Notes under the pieces: generated by a model
What the model saw: the letters and a program-made list of their open reading frames with translations, nothing else
Told to the model about the DNA's origin: nothing
Databases searched by the model: none
In this document: one piece after another, positions 7,711 through 31,186 of the stretch
How the letters are laid out: each line of letters opens with the position of its first letter
Position numbering within the stretch: the stretch's first letter is position 1
Position numbers and translations under genes: made by a program
Virus record (IMG/VR): IMGVR_UViG_3300036834_000336
Location: 1-31,495 of that record
Reading direction: 5' to 3' (one strand)
From: a virus
Length of the DNA: 31,495 bases

Positions 7711-10700
7711 TCACGTCCGCTCGATGCGCGCAGCGCCCGGGAACCACTCGGCGAACTCCGCGGTCGCGTCCACCGGGTGCGCGTCGAGGGCGAAGCCCCC
7801 GGAACGCTGCTCCCCGGCGCCGGGTCGCTGGGCGACCTCGAACAGGCGCCGGAGCGCCCTCGCGTCGCGGATGCCGTCGTGGTCGATGCGGAGGACTGTC
7901 AGCGCTCGGTCGTAGACGTCGGCCGCGGTGCGGACCGACCCGTCCATCGCGATCCGACCGGCTCCCCTGGAGCGCACGTGCTCTAACGCCTCGGTGATCT
8001 CCTGGTGCCGGCGGTCGCTCGCGGCCACCGCGTCGGCGACCTCCTTGCGCACCCGCTCGTTGATCGCCGCGTCCATCGCTGCCCTGGTCATGCTATCATC
8101 CCTAGTTCTGCGGGCGTCCCGCCCGTGCCTCTTGTCCCACGAGCGCCTGGCGTCGCGGGCGCGGTGCCTGGCGTCGCGGGCCCTGACCATCCTGTCGCGC
8201 GCGTCGCGGCAGTCCTCGTCGGCCTTGGCCATGTCGCGGGCGTGCCTGGCGGCGTCGTCCGCCTTGCGACCGTCCATCGCGGCCGAGTGGGCGTCCTTGG
8301 CGTGCCTCCAGTCGTTCGCAGCCTTCCTGTGGGCGTCGCGGGCGTGGCGGTGGGCGTCGCGGGCGTGGCGATAGTCCCGTCCCAAGCGGCGCCGGTCTCG
8401 CGCGCGGTCGTCGGCCTTGCGGCGGTCCTCACCCTCCTCGCGCTTCTCCCGCTCCTCGCGCTCCTCCTCGGTCTCGTCGCGGCCCAGGCGCTTGCGCGCG
8501 TCGGAGGCGCGCTTAGCGCGGTCGAATGAGTGAGGCTCGCGCCCGTGGGGCGGATCCTCCTCCTCGGCTACCTCGCGGTCCTCGGCCTCCTCCTCCTCCT
8601 CCTCCTCGCGCTCCTCGCGCTCCTCCTCGGTCTCGTCGCGACCCAGGCGGTGTCTGGCGTCGCGGGCGCGCTTGTCGTACTCCTCGTCCTCGCGCTTCTC
8701 CTCCTCGGTCTCGTCGTCCTCGTCCTCGGTCTCCTCGCGCATATACGGGGGGAGCCCGGAGTTGGCCTCGGTGGTCGTGTCGGCTCCCGCCTCCACTCCA
8801 CTGATGGCCTCCAGGAGCTGCGTCACCTCGCCGATGTCGGCGTCGTTCGCCAGCTTGCCCTTGAGCGCAGCGCGCAGGGCGGCGTCTAGCGCGGGGCGCT
8901 GCGAGTCGAAGTTCCGGCTGGTGATCCCGGCCCATATCGGGCTGAGGACGGACGAGATCGAGGCGGCGTCCTTCGCACCAGCCGCGTGCGGCACCGGCGT
9001 GCCGTGCTTCGCGTGCAGCCGGTGTAACTCAGCTATCTCTCGCCCGTGCTCAGTACTGAGGTCGGGAGGAGGCCCGCCCGACATTGGCGTACCGTGCTTC
9101 GCATGGAGGCGACGTAGTGTAGACAACTCGTGCTGACGCTCGGACTCGGCACCTGAACTCTTAGTCTTTCTCGCCGCAGCTGCCGCGGCCCTGGCCTCAG
9201 GTGACCAGGCGTCCTCGCCCGCGTCGAAGCTCTGCTCTATCGCCATCCCGTTCTGCTTCATCTTGGGAGCGAAGTGCCCCAGGAACTGCCCCAGGCCCAG
9301 GGCGGCCTTCGGCGACAACTGTACTCCCATGATACTCTCCTCCTCCTCGTCGTCCAAAGCGGCGTCAGACACCACCACGTCCGGCCCCTGCCGTCCCTCG
9401 GGTATCTGGGCCAGGTGCGAAAAACTTATGTCGCGCATCACGCCGTCGTACGGCTCTCCGTCCGGCGTCTTGCCCGGCATCATGTCCGGCTTGTAGCGGT
9501 AGGCGGGAGACAACGCCCGGCGCGTGTCGCTCTCGATCTCCCGGCTGGCCTTGGAGGGCCAGAACGACAGGGTAGATCTTATGAATGGCTCGTCCCATCG
9601 AGCGTCCGTCCCCACCGAGCCAACGACCATCTTGGGATCGTGGGTGTCGGCGTTGATCGGCGCGTGGTCGTTGAGGATCGGCTTGCCCTTGATCGACCCG
9701 ACGGCGCGCTCCAGCTCATCCGGGTCGCGATAGAGACGATACTTCCTCTTCGGGTCGAGCCCAAGCTTCTCGTAGCCCGGGATCTCCTTGCCGAGGTACT
9801 CGTTAACCGATGCCTTGGCTACCTTCACGTCCTTGACGTGGAGGTGCCCGTCCTCGTCGTACCGGCGAGCCGACTCGCGGTCATAGGCGAAGTCGAAGAC
9901 CGGAGGGACTGGGCCGTTCGGGTCGTAGAACCCCAACTCGCATGGCAGCGAGTGGCTGAGGATCGCCGCACCTCGCCAGTCCATCGCCAGGGCAGAATCC
10001 TCGGTCGAGCCGAACTCGCGCGCCCGGATCTCGTCGGCACGCTTGGCCAGGTCCTCGTGGCCGTGCATCCGCGCCTCGCGGGCGGCGGCCAGGAGCAGGC
10101 CGCGGTCGTACTTGCCATCCTTCTTGACCGGGTACTTCTTCTCGCTTGGCAGGAGGAAGTCGCTGTCCGGCATGTCCTCGCGGTGCTCGGAGCCGACGGT
10201 GCCGATCTCCTCGCGGGTCCTCTCGCTCAGCTTGCCCTCGGCGCGCTTCTTCGCCTCCTCGGACTCGTCGAAGCTACCTGCTGTGTACGATCGCTTGTAG
10301 ACACCGTGGGGGGCCACCTTGGCCCCGTGGACCTCACCGGTGTGCTTGTTCTCGATGGAGACGTTGTAGTTCCCGCCGGTCGACTTGGCGTGCTGGTGGA
10401 CGGCGCCGAGGTGCTTCTCGACCTCGCCGTGGTTAGACGCCGCGGTGGCGAACCTGCCGTGAGCGGCACCCTTCTCGTGAGTAGCCGTCATGTGGAGGTG
10501 AGGGGTCGATCCCCCCTGGCCCCGGGACTTGGCTGCGGCCGCGCGGGCCTCGGGACCCCACTCGTCCGTACCCATCAATTCCCAGCCGTCGAGGGCGCTC
10601 CGGCGCATCGGGCGGGCCCCGATCACCTTGTCGATCGCGGCGCGCACGCCGGGATGAGTGCGCTCCGGCAGCTCGGTGACGGGCACCCAGGCAAAGTCGC

Positions 10701-11472
10701 TGTGCTCCTTACTAAGATTCGGCTCGAACTCATCCTTGACCGGCACGACGTAGGTGGCGTGCTCGTAGTCGTTCGGGGTGCGGATGCGCTCCAGCTCCCT
10801 GATCCCGTCGAGGGCGACGTCGCCGCACTCCTCGCGCGCCTCGCGCCTGGCGCACGCCTCGAAGTCCTCCTCGCCGTCGGCCTGCCCGCCCGGGAACGAC
10901 CAGGCGTCGGGCCAGTTCTCCTCGTCCTTGGCGCGCCTCAGGAGCAGGACCTTGCCGTCCCTGGTCGTGAAGGCCACGCTGGCGGCGCGGCCCTTGCGGT
11001 CCCACGAGGAATCGCGTCCGCCCTCGCCCTCCCGGTGCTCCGGCTCCGCCTCCTCCTCGTCCAGCCACTCGCCGAACAGGCGCTTGAGGATCTTCCACTT
11101 GCCGGGGGCAAGATCCTTGCCCACCCGCTCGGGCAGCTTGCCGCCGGGGTCGGCCTCGGTGAACTCCTGGGCCACCGACTTCGGGATGCCCGACGTGCCG
11201 TGCCCGCCTGCCTCCGCCCACATGGCGCGGCGCTGGGCCTCGGACACGGGAGGATCCAGAGCCAGGCGGTCGTCCTCGGTGATGGTCAGCCTCTTCGGCA
11301 CGAACGTCAGCCCCCCGTCGCCCGGGTACGGCTCGCGGTGGTCGCGGGACGACGCCAGGATCTGGACCGGTATGCCAGCAGGAAACGCATCGCACGCCCA
11401 GCCCACGTCCGGCGCGACGCCGCGGAGGCGGGCGCAGTCGAAGCAAATCGGCGTGAGCGAGTCTCTCGACAC
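7711..11472 (-). CDS. Prohead protease-scaffold fusion with N-terminal Nudix domain
   Basis: A 1253-residue fusion starting at GTG 11472. Residues 1-60 form a Cys-containing module (ICFDC, WACDAFP, DHREPYPGDGG). Residues about 160-290 are a Nudix domain; its box is complete: G196, E202, R210-E211, E214-E215, G217. Residues 434-490 resemble the DUF6582-type segment (DSDFLLPSEKKYPV...). Residues about 537-703 are a DUF2213-type head maturation protease (RYDEDGHLHVKDVKVAKASV, YRLYRDPDELERA, NDHAP, RRALSPAYRY, ISFSHLAQIPEGRQGPDVVVSD); H603 and S655 are candidate catalytic residues. The C-terminal half is a scaffold-like region: acidic stretch 913-1018, RDAH/RHARD repeats 1025-1125, and a conserved helical end (1130-1253). 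Family members are usually 350-500 residues, so this one is greatly enlarged. Confidence 0.9.
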   Translation of the reverse strand: MSRDSLTPICFDCARLRGVAPDVGWACDAFPAGIPVQILASSRDHREPYPGDGGLTFVPKRLTITEDDRLALDPPVSEAQRRAMWAEAGGHGTSGIPKSVAQEFTEADPGGKLPERVGKDLAPGKWKILKRLFGEWLDEEEAEPEHREGEGGRDSSWDRKGRAASVAFTTRDGKVLLLRRAKDEENWPDAWSFPGGQADGEEDFEACARREAREECGDVALDGIRELERIRTPNDYEHATYVVPVKDEFEPNLSKEHSDFAWVPVTELPERTHPGVRAAIDKVIGARPMRRSALDGWELMGTDEWGPEARAAAAKSRGQGGSTPHLHMTATHEKGAAHGRFATAASNHGEVEKHLGAVHQHAKSTGGNYNVSIENKHTGEVHGAKVAPHGVYKRSYTAGSFDESEEAKKRAEGKLSERTREEIGTVGSEHREDMPDSDFLLPSEKKYPVKKDGKYDRGLLLAAAREARMHGHEDLAKRADEIRAREFGSTEDSALAMDWRGAAILSHSLPCELGFYDPNGPVPPVFDFAYDRESARRYDEDGHLHVKDVKVAKASVNEYLGKEIPGYEKLGLDPKRKYRLYRDPDELERAVGSIKGKPILNDHAPINADTHDPKMVVGSVGTDARWDEPFIRSTLSFWPSKASREIESDTRRALSPAYRYKPDMMPGKTPDGEPYDGVMRDISFSHLAQIPEGRQGPDVVVSDAALDDEEEESIMGVQLSPKAALGLGQFLGHFAPKMKQNGMAIEQSFDAGEDAWSPEARAAAAAARKTKSSGAESERQHELSTLRRLHAKHGTPMSGGPPPDLSTEHGREIAELHRLHAKHGTPVPHAAGAKDAASISSVLSPIWAGITSRNFDSQRPALDAALRAALKGKLANDADIGEVTQLLEAISGVEAGADTTTEANSGLPPYMREETEDEDDETEEEKREDEEYDKRARDARHRLGRDETEEEREEREEEEEEEAEDREVAEEEDPPHGREPHSFDRAKRASDARKRLGRDETEEEREEREKREEGEDRRKADDRARDRRRLGRDYRHARDAHRHARDAHRKAANDWRHAKDAHSAAMDGRKADDAARHARDMAKADEDCRDARDRMVRARDARHRARDARRSWDKRHGRDARRTRDDSMTRAAMDAAINERVRKEVADAVAASDRRHQEITEALEHVRSRGAGRIAMDGSVRTAADVYDRALTVLRIDHDGIRDARALRRLFEVAQRPGAGEQRSGGFALDAHPVDATAEFAEWFPGAARIERT

Positions 11473-12999: not shown

Positions 13000-13206
13000 T
13001 TATCGATACGCGGGGTGCTCGTGCCGCTCGCGGTGCTCGAAGTGGCGGTGTTCCCGTTCCCGGTACCAGCGGTGGCGTTCCATCTCTTCCTGATGCGCGC
13101 GATACTCGGTATCGACGACGAATGAGCGCATGGGTATGGCTCTGACCGACCCGGAGGCCAGCGCAACGGTCGACAGGGCGAGTAATACGGCGAGCGTGGT
13201 TCTCAC
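13000..13206 (-). CDS. Small exported His/Arg/Glu-rich peptide, 68 aa
   Basis: The N-terminus MRTTLAVLLALSTVALASGS continues to VRA and looks like a Sec signal peptide with likely cleavage after VRA (residue 23). The mature part, about 45 residues, is extremely charged, with seven histidines and repeated HR/ER pairs (HRWYREREHRHFEHRERHEH). Such a peptide could bind metal ions or acidic polymers in the periplasm. It overlaps the stop-start junction with the HExxH protein upstream (13203-13206), so the two are probably co-translated. Function unknown. Confidence 0.65.
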   Translation of the reverse strand: MRTTLAVLLALSTVALASGSVRAIPMRSFVVDTEYRAHQEEMERHRWYREREHRHFEHRERHEHPAYR

Positions 13207-13745
13207 TGCAATCCTCTAAGTACGTCTCGCATGTCCGCGGCCTCCTCGTCCGTCGCGAGCCCCATGTGGACCAGCGTGAACTCCTCGGCCCAGAACTCCA
13301 GCAGCGGGGGATTTCCGACCAGGGCGTATCCGCTTGGCGCACGGCGGGGATCCCGCGTCGCGGCGCGGAAGCGCTCGCGCGTCCACTTCTCGACCTCGCG
13401 GCGGGGCAAGGCATCCCAGGAGACGTGACCGAACTCGTGGGTCAGGACGTGGGCGGGCTCGTCGACCATCGGGCCGTGCCAGCCCATCCGAACACCCCCG
13501 ACCTCCACCGCGTGCCGGTTCGCGGCGGCGCGGCGGAGGAGGGACGGCCCCCTAGTAAACCAGTAAGAGTTCAGTCGGATGACGCCGTCAGTGGTGCCGC
13601 CGATCGAGGTATCGCCAGGCGCGGGTCGGAACAGGACCACAGACTTGAGGACGGCGCCGGGGTACTGCTCGGTCAGGGGAGTCAAGATGTCCGGGATCGA
13701 TCGCCGGTAATCTGGATGGGCCCCGGCGATGTCGAACTGGACCAC
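13203..13745 (-). CDS. Zincin-like (HExxH) protein, putative metallopeptidase
   Basis: A 180-residue protein with HVLTHEFGHVSWDALP: H103, E104 and H107 form an HExxH zinc site. Downstream LLEFWAEEFTLVHMG offers E154 or E155 as a third ligand, the geometry of gluzincin-like peptidases. No signal peptide is present. The start (GTG 13745) has no clear ribosome binding site, so the true start could differ. The neighbour, coupled by overlap, is an exported His-rich peptide. Substrate unknown; virion processing or host targets are possible. The portal of this window carries a second, distinct HExxH domain. Confidence 0.7.
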   Translation of the reverse strand: MVQFDIAGAHPDYRRSIPDILTPLTEQYPGAVLKSVVLFRPAPGDTSIGGTTDGVIRLNSYWFTRGPSLLRRAAANRHAVEVGGVRMGWHGPMVDEPAHVLTHEFGHVSWDALPRREVEKWTRERFRAATRDPRRAPSGYALVGNPPLLEFWAEEFTLVHMGLATDEEAADMRDVLRGLQ

Positions 13746-19302: not shown

Positions 19303-19484
19303 TCCTCGTCCTCCTCCTCTCCCCCGGCGCCCGGGCGCCCGGAGCTGGGCACCAGGAACCGGATCTCGCCGTCGTCGAACACGACCTTGACGATCTGGGC
19401 CGCGTCCTTGTCAGTCGGCTCAAATTTTGCGGTGAGGTAGGCCACCACCGCCGGGCGTCCGCCCACCTCCTGGCGTTCGATCAT
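19299..19484 (-). CDS. Small acidic-tailed hypothetical protein, 61 aa
   Basis: ATG at 19484 overlaps the last codons of the portal gene (ATGA-type). The product VVAYLTAKFEPTDKDAAQIVKVVFDDGEIRFLVPSS suggests a small beta-barrel-like fold, ending in the acidic tail GGEEEDEE. It is co-translated with the portal and the 91-aa gene. Function unknown. Confidence 0.65.
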   Translation of the reverse strand: MIERQEVGGRPAVVAYLTAKFEPTDKDAAQIVKVVFDDGEIRFLVPSSGRPGAGGEEEDEE

Positions 19485-22417
19485 TGCTTCACTCTCCCGT
19501 AGAGGTCGTTGACCGCCCGATATAGCGGTCCCCAGTGCTTGGACTCCTTATACCACAGGAGGCGGTCCAGGGATCCCTCCCAGTCGAGGCTGGCCATCTC
19601 AGCCAGCGTCTCGTGGATGGCCTGGTCCGCAGTGGCGGATCCCTTTTCCTCCGCCCCCCACCACTGGCGACTGTAGTCGGTGATGCCGTCGTCCTCCCGC
19701 AGGTTACCGAGGCCACTCAGGACGAGGTGCTCGTTGATCGCGGCGTAGAACGGGTACTTCTCCGCCACTCCCTCGCGAAGCGTTCCGTCTACCCGGAAGA
19801 ACCCTAGGTCCGGATCGCGACGCTGCGCCTCCATTAGATTCGCCCTATCCCGCTTGTAGCCGTTGCGAACGGCTTGCCACTTCTGGTGCATCACCTCGTG
19901 GGCCAGGACCCCGCCGACCGATTGAGAAGAGAGGTGGTCCGAGAACACCTCGATTGTCCCGCGGTCGAGGTACGCCACTCCGGCGTAGTCGTACTCGCGC
20001 CCGTCCAGCGTGAACTTTTTTCCCATACTGGGGCGCACGCCGACGTCCCTCGACTCGAACCCCATGGCCGGGGCGATCACGTCCGCCACCTTCCTCACGT
20101 CCGTCTCGGACAGCTGCTGGTGGAAGCCGCGCTCGCGAGTACCGAGGAACATGGCGACTCGCTCCCTCGCCTCCTTGATCCGGGCTCCGTAGGTCTTAGC
20201 TCTCAGGGCCAACCGGCCCAGCGCCTCGGCGAGGTGCTCCCGCTTGTTTGAGACCTCGTGGAGGAACTTGTCGTCCTTATACACGGCGGAGTGATAGGAG
20301 ATTCCCTTGGCCATGTTCTTGGACGAGAACGCCACCGAGTGACCGCTGGGGTGCGTGTAGATCGCGTGGGGCGAGTCGGGGTGCTCGACGAAGCCGTGGG
20401 ACTTGAGCAGCTCGTGGTGGCCCCTGGCCGCGCTGCCCTTCGGGGCGAACTTGCCGGCCTCGGACCTCGGGTGGAGGTACTCCTCCCACTTGACGTCCTC
20501 GGCCAGGTCAAAAGAGCGCTCGTCGTCCCCACCCTCCTCGGCGATGGCGGACAGCGCGTCCATCGCCAGGGCCAGCGCGGCGTGGGCCTCGCGGACGGCG
20601 TCGACGGCTAGGTCGTGCGCGGCGAAGCCGCCGGTGGTTGCCCCGCCGAACCGCGCGGACTGGTTGGTCAGGCCGGTCAGGTCGCGGCGGGTTGGCTTGG
20701 GACCGGCCTGCCCACCGCCGGGACCCTCGGGCAGTTCTCCGGGCGGCTGCTCTCCCTCGGGGCCCATCATCTCCATCGGGTCTGGCTTGGGCAGCGGCTC
20801 GTGGAGGTCGAGGCCGGCGTACTGGGAGTCCGGGTCGCGGGCGATGGATAGCCGCGCCTCCTTGGGGTCGACCGACCCGGCCTCGATGTCGATCGCGCGC
20901 TGGTCCGCCTTGGTCTTCTGGATCGCGCTCTTGCCGGCCTCGTCGAGCTGCCACAGCGGCGGGAACTCCATCTCGATGTCGTCGTCCACCTCGCCCCACA
21001 GCTCGACCTGGACCATGTTGACGACCGTGGTAATCGGCTCCCGGATCCACCCCTCCTGCTCGGCGTGGATCTGGTCGTAGAACATCCGAATCACCCCCTC
21101 GCTGTCGGCGTTCAGACCGGACGGCTGGTTTCCGAAGTACTTCACGATGGGGATGCGGCAGGGCGCGCAGATGTGCTCCGCGGCCTGTGATACCAGGTCC
21201 TTGATTCCGCCGAGCGGCGCGGAGACGTTGGTGAGGTCCTCGGTGTCCTTGTTAATCAGGAACATGCCCTGGTTGTCGCGGAGCACGTTGGCGGTCGCGA
21301 CGCGCGCGAGCAGCTCCGATCCCTCGTCCATCGTCTGGACGTCGAGGTTGGTCGCCAGGACCACGTTGGAGAAGTTGTTCAGCAGGTCCGACGCCGACGT
21401 CCGGTCGCGCAGGTAGAAGTCGACGTACGGCTTGCTCATCTGGGTCCGGCTCAGGCCGCCGAACGAGTAGGCAGGCTTGAGCATGTCCGGGACCGGATTC
21501 GAGCAGAACGTCAGGAGGCGCGTCCGGTGCACCTCCTTGCCCATGACCCACCAGGTGTCGGGCCGGTACCAATCGACCCTCAGCGGATCGTCGGCGTTGT
21601 ACTGGGCCGGGTAGCACCACATCGGCTCGATCGCGGCCAGCCGTCGGATGCGCTTCTTCTTACCCCCTCGGCGGTCGGGCTCCTCGCCCGGACGGGTGGA
21701 CCCCGGCTCGAAGTCGTGGGCCAGGCCGTCGCGCCCAAACTTGGCCTGGGTGTCCCTCCCGCCGTCGCCGATCGGGGTCTTGAGTTCCTCCTGGTCGTCC
21801 TCGTCACCGGTGTCGATGTAGATCTGCGCGCGTCCCTGGAAGCCATCGTTCACGATGGCGTCGTAGATCACCTGGCGCAGCCTGAGATCATCGAGTCGCT
21901 CGTTCAGCTTATCGATCCTGCCCTGCTTGTCCTTGTCCTCGCTCTTGCTCTTGAACTCGATCCACTCGCGGGTCATCTCCGTCGCGAAGACCCCGGTGAT
22001 CGTCCGGTACTCAGGGCGCTGGGACAGCAGCACCAGGACGGCGTAGCCCAGCCACTGCTGGCCCTCGGCGTAGGCGCTGGCGAAGTACTGGTTGGCGTAC
22101 GCCCCCACCCATCCCTCGGCGGCTGTCGCGGTCTGGGGCCCCCCTGGGTAGTCGTCCATGGCCCCACGCCACGCCTCGGCGGCGTCGAGGGCGATCTGGG
22201 GGACGGGCGGCTTGCCCTGCCCGACGACGCCGGGAATCGGCTGCGCGGGCGTGAAGGGGTTGGGACGGCTCGGGGCACTGCCGGACGCGGAGCGCCGGCC
22301 CAGCCCCCTGGCCACGTCGCGCAGCGCGCGCCACAGGCCGCGGGGACGCTGCCTCTCGGGAATCGGGACGACGTTACTCCCCCTAGGAGGAGCGGGCGGG
22401 CGGGCGGATCGGGACAT
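19481..22417 (-). CDS. Portal protein (DUF1073 type) fused to an HExxH peptidase-like domain
   Basis: A 978-residue protein. Residues about 50-560 are a portal of the DUF1073 type: NPFTPAQPIPGVVGQGKP, WLGYAVLVLLSQRPEYRTITGVFATEMTREWIEF, RIRRLAAIEPMWCYPAQYN, FGGLSRTQMSKPYVDFYLRD and IPIVKYFGNQPSGLNADSEG. Portals form the dodecameric DNA gate at one capsid vertex. A Pro/Gly-rich linker (about 560-600) leads to LHPRSEAGKFAPKGSAARG (648-666), a linker type frequent in phage structural proteins. Residues 745-978 form an extra domain with VGGVLAHEVMHQKWQAV: H840, E841, H844, and IHETLAEMAS near 935 as possible third ligand. Other portals of this type often end near residue 500-550. Start ATG 22417 lacks a clear ribosome binding site. 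Confidence 0.9.
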   Translation of the reverse strand: MSRSARPPAPPRGSNVVPIPERQRPRGLWRALRDVARGLGRRSASGSAPSRPNPFTPAQPIPGVVGQGKPPVPQIALDAAEAWRGAMDDYPGGPQTATAAEGWVGAYANQYFASAYAEGQQWLGYAVLVLLSQRPEYRTITGVFATEMTREWIEFKSKSEDKDKQGRIDKLNERLDDLRLRQVIYDAIVNDGFQGRAQIYIDTGDEDDQEELKTPIGDGGRDTQAKFGRDGLAHDFEPGSTRPGEEPDRRGGKKKRIRRLAAIEPMWCYPAQYNADDPLRVDWYRPDTWWVMGKEVHRTRLLTFCSNPVPDMLKPAYSFGGLSRTQMSKPYVDFYLRDRTSASDLLNNFSNVVLATNLDVQTMDEGSELLARVATANVLRDNQGMFLINKDTEDLTNVSAPLGGIKDLVSQAAEHICAPCRIPIVKYFGNQPSGLNADSEGVIRMFYDQIHAEQEGWIREPITTVVNMVQVELWGEVDDDIEMEFPPLWQLDEAGKSAIQKTKADQRAIDIEAGSVDPKEARLSIARDPDSQYAGLDLHEPLPKPDPMEMMGPEGEQPPGELPEGPGGGQAGPKPTRRDLTGLTNQSARFGGATTGGFAAHDLAVDAVREAHAALALAMDALSAIAEEGGDDERSFDLAEDVKWEEYLHPRSEAGKFAPKGSAARGHHELLKSHGFVEHPDSPHAIYTHPSGHSVAFSSKNMAKGISYHSAVYKDDKFLHEVSNKREHLAEALGRLALRAKTYGARIKEARERVAMFLGTRERGFHQQLSETDVRKVADVIAPAMGFESRDVGVRPSMGKKFTLDGREYDYAGVAYLDRGTIEVFSDHLSSQSVGGVLAHEVMHQKWQAVRNGYKRDRANLMEAQRRDPDLGFFRVDGTLREGVAEKYPFYAAINEHLVLSGLGNLREDDGITDYSRQWWGAEEKGSATADQAIHETLAEMASLDWEGSLDRLLWYKESKHWGPLYRAVNDLYGRVKQ

Positions 22418-24485: not shown

Positions 24486-24962
24486 TCACGGCTCCCGGCA
24501 CCGTCGCCAAGTCGCCAAAAAGTGGAGAACTAAGAGCGCCGAGAACGCGACCTGATCGCCGCTTATGTGCGCCCAGCCTATGGGCGATCCGTCCGGGTAA
24601 GTTCTCGTCCCGTCGAGGTATGCGCCGTCGTACGTCGCGACCAAGCCGCCAGCGGCCATCGCCGCGGTAAAGATATTCTGAGGAATGAAGAAAATTAACA
24701 TTCGCGCCCAGCCTAGCCGAAACATCGTTCCGATGACTGCCAAGACTGCCGATGCCACCATCGCCGACGCCACCATGTCGGGATGCTGCATGATTCTGAA
24801 AACTTCGATCACTGCCCTCAGGGCAGTCGCGTTGCCAGCGCGGTGGCCCCACAGGATCAAACTTGCCTGATAGACGTGCATCAGCGAGATGACGACGATC
24901 ACCGAGGACGCGAGCCTAGACGGTGGCGGCGCCCCGACTGCGCCGTCTGCCACCTCACTCAC
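24486..24962 (-). CDS. Multi-span membrane protein, 158 aa, unknown
   Basis: Starts at GTG 24962, overlapping the stop of the exported 122-aa gene (GTGA); the open frame extends further upstream but only as a shadow of that gene. About four membrane spans are visible: residues 20-38 (SVIVVISLMHVYQASLILW), 64-83 (VASAMVASAVLAVIGTMF), 87-110 (ARMLIFFIPQNIFTAAMAAG) and 135-151. It resembles the neighbouring 183-aa membrane protein in style, not in clear sequence. Function unknown. Confidence 0.65.
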   Translation of the reverse strand: MSEVADGAVGAPPPSRLASSVIVVISLMHVYQASLILWGHRAGNATALRAVIEVFRIMQHPDMVASAMVASAVLAVIGTMFRLGWARMLIFFIPQNIFTAAMAAGGLVATYDGAYLDGTRTYPDGSPIGWAHISGDQVAFSALLVLHFLATWRRCREP

Positions 24963-25327
24963 CCCTCGGACGGGAGGACGAAGCACCGCACCCACGGCAC
25001 CTTGATCTCGTGGTCGAAGCGGTACCCGACGCAGACCACGGGCCGACCAGTCGGGTTGCGGGTGTACTGGAGCAGCGCGTCGCGCGGGACGGGGATCCAC
25101 TCGCCTCGGATCCTCACCTCGTAGTCGTAGTCAGGCAGCTGGCTGGCGCGATAGTCGGCGTCGCCGATCGCGCCGCAGTCGTGGTGGGCCCCGCAGCACC
25201 CGACCGCGTGGCCACCCAGGGAGTTGTACCACTCCGCATCAGGTTCGCCCGGCTCGTGGGCGTGGGCACGGGACGCCCACGAGAGGAGGAGAACCATCGA
25301 AAGCAGGAGGCGATCGGACTTACTCAT
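24959..25327 (-). CDS. Exported cysteine-containing protein, 122 aa
   Basis: ATG 25327 has AGGA just upstream. MSKSDRLLLSMVLLLSWASR followed by AHA is a clear signal peptide with cleavage before HEPGEPDAEWYNSL. The mature domain has GGHAVGCCGAHHDCGAIGDADYR, an ASQLPDYDYEVRIRGEWIPVP segment and PTGRPVVCVGY with a late cysteine. Small exported proteins with this [WY]Y.SL...CC...DC pattern are common in Rhizobiales and their phages as I recall them; role unknown. It is coupled to the downstream membrane gene by GTGA. Confidence 0.75.
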   Translation of the reverse strand: MSKSDRLLLSMVLLLSWASRAHAHEPGEPDAEWYNSLGGHAVGCCGAHHDCGAIGDADYRASQLPDYDYEVRIRGEWIPVPRDALLQYTRNPTGRPVVCVGYRFDHEIKVPWVRCFVLPSEG

Positions 25328-26120: not shown

Positions 26121-27878
26121 TTACCGGGCGCGGGCGAAGCGATTCCTGGACGGCGCGGCGAGCGGAGCGGCCCGGCCCCCCTGTATGACTCTCCTGAGCG
26201 CGGCCGGGGGCAGGATCAGGGCACCCGGCTCGGGATCGGCAAAGGCGATCATCACGGCGTCGGCGAGGTTCGGGGATCGGTTGCCGGCCGGCGTCTTGTC
26301 CACGAATATCTTCCCGGCCCCGTTCCTGTCCCACGTCGGCTGGGACAGCTCGGACGCCAGCTGGCTCCTCATGCTGGCAGGGATGGAGGAGCTGATCGAC
26401 ACGACGTCGCCCGGCGACGCGGCGATCCCCTCGGCGACGTGACGGTACGTGGCCAGGAAGCGATTCCTCAGCGACCACCACGCCTGGGCCTTCCGGTTGA
26501 GGAACATGTCCTTGTTCTTGCGACCGGCGACGTCCTGGCGCTCCGGTCCCAGCACCGCGGCCGAGCCGCGGAACGGGAGGACGCCCACCCTGCGGCGGGA
26601 CGTCTCCTGCTCCTGGATCGCCCTGGCGTCTCCCCTGACCCCCGCCCCGAGGCCGTCGGCGTCGTAGCGCAGATCACCCAGCTCCCACTCGGAGCACAGC
26701 GCCAGCGCGCGCTGGACCGTGGCGTATATGTCCCCGCCCAGCCCCGACCACTCCTCGACGTGCTCCATGAGCACGCCCTTGACGGCGACGAACGCGTTGC
26801 GATCCACGCCCTCGTCGGCAACGTCGAGGCCGCCGCGGGCGGAGCCGCTGGCGCAGGCACCGGGGGCGAACCTGAGGTGGGCGTCGAGGGCCGCGCCGAC
26901 CCAGGACGCCGGGATGAGCACGCCCTCGACGCTGGCCGCGTAGTCGCGGTCGATCTCCTGGGCAACGATCGCCGGGCTGTGAGCCTCGGCCAGCTTCTTC
27001 TGGTACCAGGCGTCGCTCTTGCGGGGGTCGTCGTGCCAGTCGAAGACGAAGACCTCGATCTTGCCGGAGTGCCGGTTCTGCTCGAACGGATTGCCCAGTC
27101 CGTGGACGGACGAGACGTCGTGGCGGCAGTTGGTGGTGTCGATCAGCGACGCCTCGGCGACCAGGGGCCTCTCCAGGTGGGCCGCCTCGTCCACGAAGTA
27201 CAGCGAGGTCCTGTTCCCCCTCCCGATGTTGTCGCCGCCCTCGCCGACCATCAGAGACCCGGTGTCCGGGAACATCAGCCGCATGTGGAAGGAGTTCCTG
27301 CTCTCGCTCCACGTCCCCCGGAACTCCTGAGGCAGCGCCCTCATGAATATCCGGGCCTTCTCGAAGATGGACTTGGGATCGCCGATCTTGTCGACGTACT
27401 CCTCCAGGCGCGAGCCGAACCCGCACACCACGCCCTCGTGGAACAGGCAGAGGGTGGCCGACAGGCTGACGGCGAGCCACGTCACGCCGCAGTCCCTGCT
27501 CTTCTCGGACAGGGCGCGCTCGCGGCTGCGCCACTTGCGCAGCGCGTACTCGCACCAGTCCACCTGGCGGGGAAACGGCACGAACGGGATCCTGGCCGGG
27601 AGCCCGACCTCGGGGTTGCGGGGGTCGAAGGTGACGCCCCAGTCGGCGATGAAGTCCACCGGGTGGTCCCGGTAGTGGTACCTGAGGTACGGCAGGAGGC
27701 GGGAGTCCGACCTCAGCCTCTCCAGCCTGCCCTGGCGCTCCTCCTCGATCGCGGGGTAGTCGGGGTGCTTCCAGTCGACCTCAGTCGGCTCGCCTCGGAC
27801 GTAGTAGATCGGGTCGTACGACTCCCAGAAGTCGTCGGTCTCCCTGGTCCTCCGGCGCACCTCCTCGACCAGGGCCAA
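26121..27878 (-). CDS. terL: Terminase large subunit
   Basis: ATPase domain: SEKSRDCGVTWLAVSLSATL holds the Walker A-equivalent (SRDCGVTW, without the standard GKS), and TSLYFVDEAAHLER is Walker B with D-E. The C-terminal nuclease domain starts at GGLDVADEGVDRNAFV with the first metal-binding Asp; LRYDADGLGAG and SPNLADAVMIAFA supply the others. It cuts and pumps DNA into the prohead through the portal. The reading frame is open to 27965, but the first 30 codons lie in well-conserved small-terminase coding DNA; TTG 27878, with AGGA about eight bases upstream, is chosen, giving 585 residues. Start remains uncertain. Confidence 0.9.
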   Translation of the reverse strand: MALVEEVRRRTRETDDFWESYDPIYYVRGEPTEVDWKHPDYPAIEEERQGRLERLRSDSRLLPYLRYHYRDHPVDFIADWGVTFDPRNPEVGLPARIPFVPFPRQVDWCEYALRKWRSRERALSEKSRDCGVTWLAVSLSATLCLFHEGVVCGFGSRLEEYVDKIGDPKSIFEKARIFMRALPQEFRGTWSESRNSFHMRLMFPDTGSLMVGEGGDNIGRGNRTSLYFVDEAAHLERPLVAEASLIDTTNCRHDVSSVHGLGNPFEQNRHSGKIEVFVFDWHDDPRKSDAWYQKKLAEAHSPAIVAQEIDRDYAASVEGVLIPASWVGAALDAHLRFAPGACASGSARGGLDVADEGVDRNAFVAVKGVLMEHVEEWSGLGGDIYATVQRALALCSEWELGDLRYDADGLGAGVRGDARAIQEQETSRRRVGVLPFRGSAAVLGPERQDVAGRKNKDMFLNRKAQAWWSLRNRFLATYRHVAEGIAASPGDVVSISSSIPASMRSQLASELSQPTWDRNGAGKIFVDKTPAGNRSPNLADAVMIAFADPEPGALILPPAALRRVIQGGRAAPLAAPSRNRFARAR

Positions 27879-28425
27879 CGTGCGGTCCTGCTCCGTCCTC
27901 GACGACTTGGAAATCGCCGTCAATGACGATCCCGCGACGCGCAAGTTCATCCGCGATCTGCTCATCCGTCAACTGCTTGGGGTCAGTGGTGATCTCGATC
28001 CGCTCGCGCCACATCTCGGGCTGGCGGTGGCTCAGCCAGTAGGCGCCGGCGGCCTGGTTGGGGGGATAGTGCTTGATCACCGGGACCTGGGTCACGATGC
28101 CATCGGAGACGAAGACCTTCGTCTCGGGGTGGGAGTACCCGAGGGCATTCTTGTACACGCTCCTGGCCACGTTGGCGTCGGCGTCGTGCTTTCCCTCACT
28201 CAGAGCCTTTAGAAATTCTGGATGGTGCTTCTTCCAGGAGTAGAACGTCGCGATGGTGGTGTCGAAGAACCCGATCATCTGCTCGTCGGTGGCCCCGAGG
28301 AGCGCGTAGTTGTACGCGCGCTGGGCGTACTCCGGGCGGTAGCTGGACGGGCGTCCCTGGGGAACGGGTGCCCGTCGCACCATCCTGCTGGACCTGGGAC
28401 CGCGGTAGTCGGGCTCGTCCTTCAC
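27781..28425 (-). CDS. terS: Terminase small subunit
   Basis: The 214-residue product begins with a basic segment and then YNYALLGATDEQMIGFFDTT, IATFYSWKKHHPEFLKALSEGK and DADANVARSVYKNALGYSHPETKVF, the standard order of a small terminase: helix-turn-helix, WK..HPEF..AL..GK and ANVA.SLY..A.GY. It recognises the phage DNA and loads the large subunit. Residues up to about 180 (DEQIADELARRGIVIDGDFQVVEDG) look authentic; the last 35 residues overlap the large subunit gene, are Gly/Arg-rich and may be out of the conserved part. Confidence 0.9.
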   Translation of the reverse strand: MKDEPDYRGPRSSRMVRRAPVPQGRPSSYRPEYAQRAYNYALLGATDEQMIGFFDTTIATFYSWKKHHPEFLKALSEGKHDADANVARSVYKNALGYSHPETKVFVSDGIVTQVPVIKHYPPNQAAGAYWLSHRQPEMWRERIEITTDPKQLTDEQIADELARRGIVIDGDFQVVEDGAGPHVGPGRGGAPEDQGDRRLLGVVRPDLLRPRRAD

Positions 28426-28451
28426 GTCTATGACTCAACTCCAGGGGGGTT

Positions 28452-30914
28452 CTACTGCACGCCGATGGTCAGGGTGCGCGTTGCCGGGCCGCAGGTCAGC
28501 TTGTAGGCTCCCGCGAACGGCTCTGTGAATCTCATCGTTCCGTTCGTCGGCTCGGGGCCGGACCACGCACCGGACGCGGCGCAGCTTGGAGCATTCGTGG
28601 CCAACCAATCAAACGAGATCGCCGGGAAATCGACGGTGACCGGCGGCGGCGGAGGAGCAGTTACCATGAAGGTAAGTGATTGCGGGAAACTCACTCCGTT
28701 TTCAGTAGCCTGCAGATTGCAGGCGTGGCTGCCGACGTCGCCCGCAGCCAGGGCCCGAGACAGCGTGAGGTTGCCGTTGCCGCTTGCCGGGGCAGCGCAG
28801 AGCGCATCGCTGCCGGCGAGCAGCGTGTTCGCCCCGGAGTACGTCGAGGGCGGGTTGGTCGTGACCACGAATCCGGCGATCGTCGCGCCCGAGGCCGCGT
28901 TGTCCAGCAGCGACGGGTTGGGCGGCGTGTAGTTGATCGCGGTCGGAACCGGCGAGGGCGGGGGAGGCGGCGTCGTGGGAATGGTCTTGAAATCGATTTC
29001 CCAGCCGTCCAGCGATCCCTGGAATTGCGACGCGGGTACCTGGACGTGCATGGTCCAGGTGCCGAGGTCAGACGTACCGTCGAACATGTTGGTGCTGAAT
29101 GGTACGTCGTTGTGCCCGTTGGCGTTGAACGGCAGTGGGATGGGAAAGGTGGCGCCAGATGGCGAGATGAGCGACACCGAGAGTTGGCCAATCGGGAAGA
29201 AGCTGAGGTGAACCACTCCAGACAGGCCGCTGTAGATCTTGCCGCCGTCAAACGCCGTTATCCTCGTCTCTACGGGCGGCGGCGTAGTCCACCAGGGAAA
29301 ATCTCCGCCGGTCAAGTGGGCCGTCTCGGTGGAGACGTACTGCAAGTCCTTGGTGCCGTATGGCCACACCTTGATTTGCGTCTGGGTCGTGTCCTGGATC
29401 GTGCCGTCGGCGGCCGCCGCGGCGTGGAGGACCACGTTGTACGTCTGCGGGGCGGGCGTGGAGAGCGACGGCATCAGGGTGACGCTCGCGACCTGTCCCG
29501 GCGTGATCGACGTCGGATTGATCGTGCACGCGGCAGCGGGAACGCCGCTGCAATCCAGATTCACGGGGCCGGCAAAGCCACCCAAGCCCCGCAGATCGAC
29601 GGTGCCGGCGATGGCCGAATTCTGGTTTACCTCAGTCGTCGGCCACGTCGAGCTGAGTCTTATGCTGGGCGCCGCGGCGTGAACCATGCCGGGGAGATCC
29701 ACGCGGCCGTGCGTGAAGACCGGCAAGGCCAGATTGATCGAGCCGGTCTCCATGCGATCCTTCACGGCTTGGATCGACAGGGTGGGGTCCTGGCTCCACG
29801 CCAGCGCCCAGGCGCCCGCCACTTCCGGCGACGCCATCGAGGTGCCCGATGCGAGCCGAGTGGCGGTCCCGCCAGCATCGTGATCCAGGCCAAGGACACT
29901 CACGCCCGGAGCGGCGATGAACACGCCTCCCTGAGCCTCGGGGCAAGTACCGAAGTTGGAGAAGCTCGCCAGCTTGTCGCTGGAGTCCGTGGCCGCGACC
30001 GCCACGACGTGAGGAAGAGTAGCGGGCATGAACGGCGTGCTGGCGTTGCAGTTGTCGGTCCCGTTGTTGCCGGCCGCGGCGACGACGCCAACGCCAGCGG
30101 CATACAGCGCCGCGTCGGCGTCGATGTACGACTGGGTCGGGGCGCTGTTCGAGCCCCACGAGTTGTTCACGATCACCTTGTAGCAAGGCGCGGCGCCGCA
30201 CATCTGCGAGGCGAGCTGGAGCGCGTAGTTCCACGTCAGCAGGCCGTCCGAGTCCGCGCCCTGGCCGTTGCGATCTAAGAATCTGACCATAGCGATACTA
30301 GCGGTGCCGGCGGTGCCGGCGACGTCGATACCGTTGTTGATCCTTGCCCCCGCCTCGCCCGCGACGAAGTATCCGTGCCAATTTTCCACCGGATCGGTGA
30401 TGAAGTTGCGGCTCAGGTCCTGGCGGCAGTTTGGCGCGAGGTCGGGGAGAGTGGTGCAGTCGGACCCGGTGTCGGACACGACTATAATCACATTGGACTT
30501 GCCCGTCTCGTTGTCCCACGCGGCGAACGCGTGCTGGATCGCCTTGTCCCACTCCTGGCCGATGAGTGGGTCGTTCGGCATGAACTGCGCGGAGGCCGTC
30601 GCGGAGACCGTATGACGCGGCTCAACATTCGCGACATTCGGGTCGGTGCGCAGCCGAGCCATTTCCTGCTGCAGTTGAGCCTCAGAATTATAATGGAAGA
30701 CGACAAATTCCCCTTGGCTGATGCGATCGAGCACGTAGCTGCTCACGGCGCCGCCCGCGGCGCTCGCCGATGCGGCAGCGGCGGCGGGGGTGCGATACTG
30801 CACCGTCAGAGCAGGACGCTGATTGCTGCTCTGACTCATGCTCTGCTCGGCAGAGGCCGTGCTGGACATGGCGATCGCCAGGCCGAGAATCGTCCACATG
30901 CGTAATTGTTTCAT
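28452..30914 (-). CDS. Exported subtilisin-like serine protease with P-domain
   Basis: The 820-residue product starts at ATG 30914 with GGAG eight bases upstream. Residues 1-22 are a signal peptide (MKQLRMWTILGLAIAMSSTA then SA). Residues about 58-105 resemble an inhibitor-I9-type propeptide. The S8 catalytic residues are D148 (VVSDTGSD), H180 (WHGYFVAG, a variant of HGTHVAG), N283 (AAGNNG) and S359 (GTSMASPEVAG). After Ig-like stretches, residues about 560-645 (GLSGVVHLSFFPIGQLSVSL, WTMHVQVPASQFQGSLDGW) look like a proprotein-convertase P-domain, followed by a proline-rich linker and more beta-rich segments. Such a protease is typical of bacterial secretomes, not of phage late operons; codons are less GC-biased than in the neighbours, suggesting acquisition. 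Confidence 0.9.
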   Translation of the reverse strand: MKQLRMWTILGLAIAMSSTASAEQSMSQSSNQRPALTVQYRTPAAAAASASAAGGAVSSYVLDRISQGEFVVFHYNSEAQLQQEMARLRTDPNVANVEPRHTVSATASAQFMPNDPLIGQEWDKAIQHAFAAWDNETGKSNVIIVVSDTGSDCTTLPDLAPNCRQDLSRNFITDPVENWHGYFVAGEAGARINNGIDVAGTAGTASIAMVRFLDRNGQGADSDGLLTWNYALQLASQMCGAAPCYKVIVNNSWGSNSAPTQSYIDADAALYAAGVGVVAAAGNNGTDNCNASTPFMPATLPHVVAVAATDSSDKLASFSNFGTCPEAQGGVFIAAPGVSVLGLDHDAGGTATRLASGTSMASPEVAGAWALAWSQDPTLSIQAVKDRMETGSINLALPVFTHGRVDLPGMVHAAAPSIRLSSTWPTTEVNQNSAIAGTVDLRGLGGFAGPVNLDCSGVPAAACTINPTSITPGQVASVTLMPSLSTPAPQTYNVVLHAAAAADGTIQDTTQTQIKVWPYGTKDLQYVSTETAHLTGGDFPWWTTPPPVETRITAFDGGKIYSGLSGVVHLSFFPIGQLSVSLISPSGATFPIPLPFNANGHNDVPFSTNMFDGTSDLGTWTMHVQVPASQFQGSLDGWEIDFKTIPTTPPPPPSPVPTAINYTPPNPSLLDNAASGATIAGFVVTTNPPSTYSGANTLLAGSDALCAAPASGNGNLTLSRALAAGDVGSHACNLQATENGVSFPQSLTFMVTAPPPPPVTVDFPAISFDWLATNAPSCAASGAWSGPEPTNGTMRFTEPFAGAYKLTCGPATRTLTIGVQ

Positions 30915-31186
30915 TCGCTAAACTCCATGCGACCTAATCGATGGATTACCACAGTATTATGAAATTTCGAAGACATCGCTAAACCCTCCGCTTTAGCGGA
31001 TCGCGGACGGCGGGCGTCGAAGTCGTGCGAATCGAACGATTTAAGCTCTTTAAATACGCCCTGCGCGGGGCACCCTTAGAATTTTCCGGGTTACTTGATT
31101 TATTTGGTTCTACAATGACTGTAATTTTCATAGTTCACCATGATTTTTCAGGATACTCACGTCGGTGACGAAGCGAGCCTCGACGC
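30915..31186. promoter_or_regulatory. AT-rich gene-free region, likely regulatory
   Basis: About 270 bases without a plausible gene, much richer in A and T than the rest. Visible elements are a CCGCT/AGCGG hairpin (30988-30999), an ATTTAA/TTAAAT inverted repeat (31039-31055), and on the minus strand a -10-like CATAAT near 30958-30963 about 45 bases before the subtilase start, without a good -35. The stretch 31080-31160 is the most AT-rich. It probably holds the promoter of the protease and terminase genes. Confidence 0.45.

Follow-up and report, generated by a model that had tools for sequence, protein, structure and literature searches.

What does a secreted protease do at the head of the packaging genes of a phage? 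This question is raised by an IMG/VR virus contig of 31495 bases, which was analysed over its entire length (hereafter, the window) and in which a frame of 820 codons, uninterrupted from the ATG at 30914 to the stop codon ending at 28452, encodes a subtilase of 820 aa (Table 1). The gene is separated by exactly 26 bases (28426-28451) from that of the terminase small subunit (terS), and both lie on the minus strand. A previous reading of this DNA, made without database searches (the sequence-only reading), had recorded the spacing and the common strand, without naming the latter, and had described the product as an exported S8 protease with a complete D148, H180, S359 triad, a signal peptide, a propeptide-like region and a P-domain. 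As possible roles, it had proposed the breakdown of host surface proteins or biofilm matrix at lysis, a block to superinfection or a fitness contribution in lysogens.

Table 1. Features of the protease gene, of its product and of the adjacent part of the window
Feature	Position	Strand	Evidence
Exported S8 subtilase gene	28452..30914	-	Intact ORF; Pfam Peptidase_S8 1.3e-34 and P_proprotein 5.4e-9; PHROG phrog_3677 'protease' 2.6e-34
Sec signal peptide, residues 1-22 (MKQLRMWTILGLAIAMSSTASA)	30849..30914	-	Heuristic
Propeptide, I9-like, residues 23-110	30585..30848	-	Weak Fervidolysin_NPro match; beta-alpha-beta-beta-alpha-beta in model
S8 catalytic domain, residues 111-415	29670..30584	-	VIA-align vs deseasin MCP-01 3vv3
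Catalytic Asp148 codon	30471..30473	-	Invariant in 21 subtilases
Catalytic His180 codon, motif NWHGYFVAG	30375..30377	-	Invariant in 21 subtilases
Oxyanion-hole Asn283 codon, AAGNNG	30066..30068	-	Invariant in 21 subtilases
Catalytic Ser359 codon, SGTSMASP	29838..29840	-	Invariant in 21 subtilases
P-domain (proprotein convertase P), residues 568-642	28989..29213	-	Pfam
C-terminal region, residues 643-820, proline-rich linkers	28455..28988	-	Without family match
Terminase small subunit, GTG start	27781..28425	-	phrog_309, E 4e-42
Terminase large subunit	26121..27965	-	phrog_2 7.7e-20; 56% to Burkholderia phage Magia
AT-rich intergenic gap upstream of the protease, 272 bases, 47% GC vs 66% in the window	30915..31186	.	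Composition
Holin-like ORF at contig end	31187..31495	-	Pfam Phage_holin_10 8.4e-6, 26.2 bits, just below cut-off 27; PHROG holin 0.0065

The domain content of the protein agrees with this description. The S8 profile of Pfam matches residues 140-390 with 120.2 bits, against a cut-off of 21.8, and the P-domain scores 36.5 bits against 21 in the complete protein and 40 bits when the respective piece is searched in isolation. At the N-terminus, MKQLRMWTILGLAIAMSSTASA, followed by EQ, combines a charge of +2, a hydrophobic core and an A-S-A cleavage motif and is predicted by a home-made heuristic to be a signal peptide. Residues 36-99 give a Fervidolysin_NPro-like propeptide match at E 0.0035, under the Pfam cut-off for that family, and in an AlphaFold model of the full-length protein, built from 21 sequences, residues 35-99 form the beta-alpha-beta-beta-alpha-beta unit that is expected of an I9-type propeptide. 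The catalytic domain is well formed in this model (pLDDT mostly 70-96), and residues 414-820 are almost entirely of low confidence; its top structural match is deseasin MCP-01 (PDB 3vv3; Z 41.2, rmsd 2.2 over 288 residues, 35% identity), and the comparisons with deseasin, thermitase and subtilisins yield Z values of 38-41. The three triad residues and N283, all re-read in the sequence, are invariant in the alignment of 21 subtilases. The Pfam score, the order of the triad together with the oxyanion asparagine and the modelled subtilisin fold all place the predicted protein in family S8, and each of the features named in the sequence-only reading is recovered, the signal peptide and the propeptide as predictions.

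The C-terminal region has no match in Pfam, in the phage collection or among plasmids and no usable match among solved structures, and its single-sequence model is poor and of low confidence. Searched in pieces for a PKD domain, it gave no Pfam match up to E 1, and the model there is too poor to speak against an Ig-like fold. The usual S8 motif around the catalytic histidine is HGTH; in this protein, it is HGYF, with Y and F in place of T and H. The protease also sits on a long branch in the tree of S8 domains (2.07 changes per column), where its placement is unsure. Because of the altered motif and the long branch, protease activity is not certain.

Downstream of the protease, terS is followed by the genes for the large terminase subunit (terL), the portal, a Mu F-like protein, a DUF2213 protein and the major head protein. 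Upstream, across the AT-rich gap, lies the holin-like ORF, for which no relatives were found in viral contigs or phages. By these matches, the protease is enclosed by phage genes, with thin support on the upstream side. An Rfam scan gave no match. The DUF2213 protein (7711-11472, minus strand) is a single frame of 1253 aa that contains a NUDIX domain along with DUF2213 (Pfam) and a long tail rich in Arg, Asp and Glu; judging by its position, it is likely to be the prohead protease, and a NUDIX domain fused to such a protease is, to our knowledge, unusual. The portal ORF (19481-22417, minus strand, 978 aa) has a long extension past the portal domain, with a zinc-peptidase-like HEVMHQKW (HExxH-like) motif, and another minus-strand ORF (24959-25327, 122 aa), which has no Pfam match, begins like a signal peptide and probably encodes a second exported phage protein.

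Is the protease a regular component in the group of this phage, the closest relatives of which infect alphaproteobacteria? Searches with the portal and terL yielded 95 loci, and 50 of these virus records were searched for S8: 49 had no match, and the single match, in L002 (G001), is an S53 peptidase. Our own S8 profile detected no S8 gene in any of the fetched terS, terL or portal neighbourhoods, in a scan that included 80 terS relatives, nor in the genome stretches fetched around related portals (five matches in genome contigs, three of them in Rhizobiales, including Mesorhizobium). The genes preceding terS are highly variable among the relatives. Homologues next to terminases, for which the sequence-only reading had suggested a search, are accordingly missing from the relatives covered, and absence from all related phages, which it had named as a refuting outcome, is nearly what was found, with no S8 in 49 of the 50 records, an S53 match in the remaining one and none in the neighbourhoods. 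Because the portal core of even the nearest relative shares no more than 67% identity with that of the window, this absence points to an accessory gene rather than an artefact. As far as sampled in these sequence searches, the protease gene, which is phage-borne, is an accessory of the group.

That nearest relative is L002 itself, in which several other genes are 59-79% identical to those of the window. Its peptidase is a kumamolisin-like protein of 352 aa (1.2e-53 to kumamolisin-As) that aligns over the E, D and S positions and is encoded upstream of a different terminase pair. Like the window protease, it is a clan SB serine peptidase located upstream of terS, but it belongs to family S53 rather than S8, has no signal peptide in its frame and is separated from terS by other genes. 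The L002 record (L101:8906-10306 and L101:4190-6052) further encodes, upstream of the S53 gene, a fused glycosyltransferase-sulfotransferase and an ORF with weak similarity to GH5 and, before terS, a 5-hmdU DNA kinase-like ORF. A small ORF of the window (13203-13745, minus strand), without a Pfam family, carries an LTHEFGHVSWD (HExxH-like) motif and matches L002 at 59%.

No close relatives of the protease were found by its own peptide patterns in viral contigs or genome contigs. Among viral contigs, some of which may hold host DNA, a signal peptide is predicted in the majority of the 35 S8 clusters. A group of 12 contigs (L107-L131) and the T4-like contigs L105, L106 and L125 are clearly cases of S8 in phages. 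In 11 of the 12, the exported S8 overlaps or directly follows a long portal-type ORF, which comes in two sequence types (as in L114:7500-8972 and L115:9683-11203), with a small ORF between the two genes in L109; of the members tested against portal families, L109 matched at 1.6e-58, L114 gave a weak match (8.6e-4), though with a terminase gene next to it, and a portal match of 2.8e-57 was obtained among the scanned neighbours of viral-contig S8 genes. In the T4-like contigs, terL is located about 4-6 kb downstream of the exported S8. These proteins resemble the window protease in having a signal peptide, a propeptide-like region and an S8 domain and in being encoded in late or head regions, but those aligned are 23-33% identical to it, and the core phage genes are not shared. 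Because the neighbours of viral-contig S8 genes (one per cluster) have mixed functions, replication included, no single rule of late-gene position holds for viral S8. The window gene also shows that a 'secreted protease' annotation on a virus contig can stand for a real phage gene and not for host DNA. Two further contigs (L102 and L146), in which an exported S8 belongs to a long run of genes on one strand, were not counted, hallmark phage genes beside it not being confirmed. A match in the phage collection (E 1e-5), to an assembly named 'Acinetobacter phage MD-2021a' (L100, CAKLQH020000012.1), was also rejected, its S8 being located among chromosomal-looking genes; the record, in the stretch read, appears to be mislabelled.

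S8 enzymes of this layout are exported unfolded, fold with the aid of the propeptide, which is then self-cleaved, and act outside the cell. We assign a probability of roughly 0.45 to the reading that the window gene encodes a phage-borne accessory subtilase that, judging by sequence and model, would be exported, mature itself and act on proteins of the host surface or its surroundings around the time of lysis. The gene would be transcribed jointly with the packaging and head genes or slightly before them: the common strand and the 26-base gap suggest co-transcription with terS, and it is from this spacing that we infer late transcription. The product would be exported by the Sec pathway, the propeptide would chaperone folding and then be removed by the enzyme itself, the P-domain would stabilise the protease, and the mature enzyme, at work late in infection and once the cell has lysed, would cut proteins at the host surface or in its surroundings, such as matrix or surface proteins that would otherwise retain virions or bind them again. 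That an exported P-domain enzyme is encoded directly before packaging genes suggests that it acts late in infection and outside the cytoplasm; such action, if demonstrated, would give phage release a protein-cutting step in addition to holins, endolysins and spanins. The holin-like upstream neighbour and the exported S8 genes of other virus contigs, where they occupy late or head regions, are counted in favour of a role in egress. So is the S53 peptidase of L002, which need not share the job of the window protease because its frame has no signal peptide.

The main rival to this egress reading, tentative but with a real chance of being correct, is a cargo gene (moron) that would be driven in the prophage state by a promoter of its own within the AT-rich gap and would supply the host with an extracellular protease for nutrition or competition. 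The composition of the gap, the absence of the gene from relatives, which marks it as accessory, the wide variation of the genes upstream of terS and the related portals in Rhizobiales genome contigs all fit such a gene, and a private promoter within the gap could count against the egress reading. A scan for sigma-70-like sites, which is weak for such hosts, found no promoter-like match on the protease strand within the gap, and the same scan found no terminator-like match between the protease and terS; moreover, with only 26 bases between the two genes, a transcript made in a lysogen would run into the packaging genes. Since the window proteins searched include no integrase, lysogeny is itself hypothetical for this phage.

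The lack of a close relative of the protease in any collection searched, the long branch and the unusual HGYF motif would be in keeping with a passenger gene that brings no benefit, is perhaps inactive and was recently taken from a host; this is improbable, given the full catalytic set, the open 820-codon frame and a base composition (GC3 0.82) that falls among the values of the phage genes. An assembly chimera, in which a bacterial protease gene was joined to a phage contig, is very unlikely: only 581 bases lie between the start codon and the upstream end of the contig, GC content drops sharply in the upstream gap and the holin match is weak, but terS, with its own ribosome-binding site, follows immediately downstream, base composition is continuous and the gene on the upstream side is phage-like too. 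A protease of head maturation or of the virion, which the proximity to the terminase and the position of S8 genes directly behind portal-type genes in other contigs could suggest, is hardly credible for a protein with a signal peptide and a propeptide in a phage that has the separate DUF2213 protein for a likely prohead protease.

The egress reading could be extended beyond the window. Tailed phages might have gained exported subtilases repeatedly and independently as a late-gene function, namely, as release proteases by which proteins of the host surface or the matrix are cleared around lysis. We regard this generalization as rather unlikely; if it is true, the window gene, the portal-adjacent group and the T4-like cases are separate examples.

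Phage S8 proteins are already known. Those of Xanthomonas phage Mallos (gp45), Sodalis phage phiSG1 (gp48), Brevibacillus phage Jimmer1 (gp42; PMC4168068), Agrobacterium phage Atu_ph07 and the archaeal virus vir520 have no signal peptide, and none was scored in loci L141 and L148, taken for Bacillus phages SP-15 and Goe3. All share the S8 fold with the window protease but read without a signal peptide, and none adjoins terS: gp45 of Mallos is at the border of the tail and lysis genes, and gp42 of Jimmer1 follows the gene for a cell-wall hydrolase. A tail sheath has been described that contains a subtilase-like domain without catalytic function (PMC13118943), and a literature search of incomplete coverage returned no paper on an exported phage subtilase. 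Within what was searched, an exported deseasin-like S8 protease immediately before the terminase is an undescribed variant, for which we make no claim of a first report.

Outside phages, the closest parallel in structure is deseasin MCP-01, an S8 protease of Pseudoalteromonas with a C-terminal P-proprotein domain; a review that covers deseasin reports that P-domains contribute to keeping the protease stable (PMC11294657). An S8 protein encoded on a Pseudoalteromonas plasmid aligns with residues 12-642 of the window protease at 26%. The window protease resembles deseasin MCP-01, its top structural match, in the C-terminal P-domain and differs from it in that no PKD domain was detected, in an extra, unassigned region (416-545) and the C-terminus, in HGYF for HGTH and in being encoded by a phage. 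It is thus a phage-borne, structurally intact S8 protease, predicted to be exported, with the deseasin-like layout of signal peptide, propeptide, S8 domain and P-domain.
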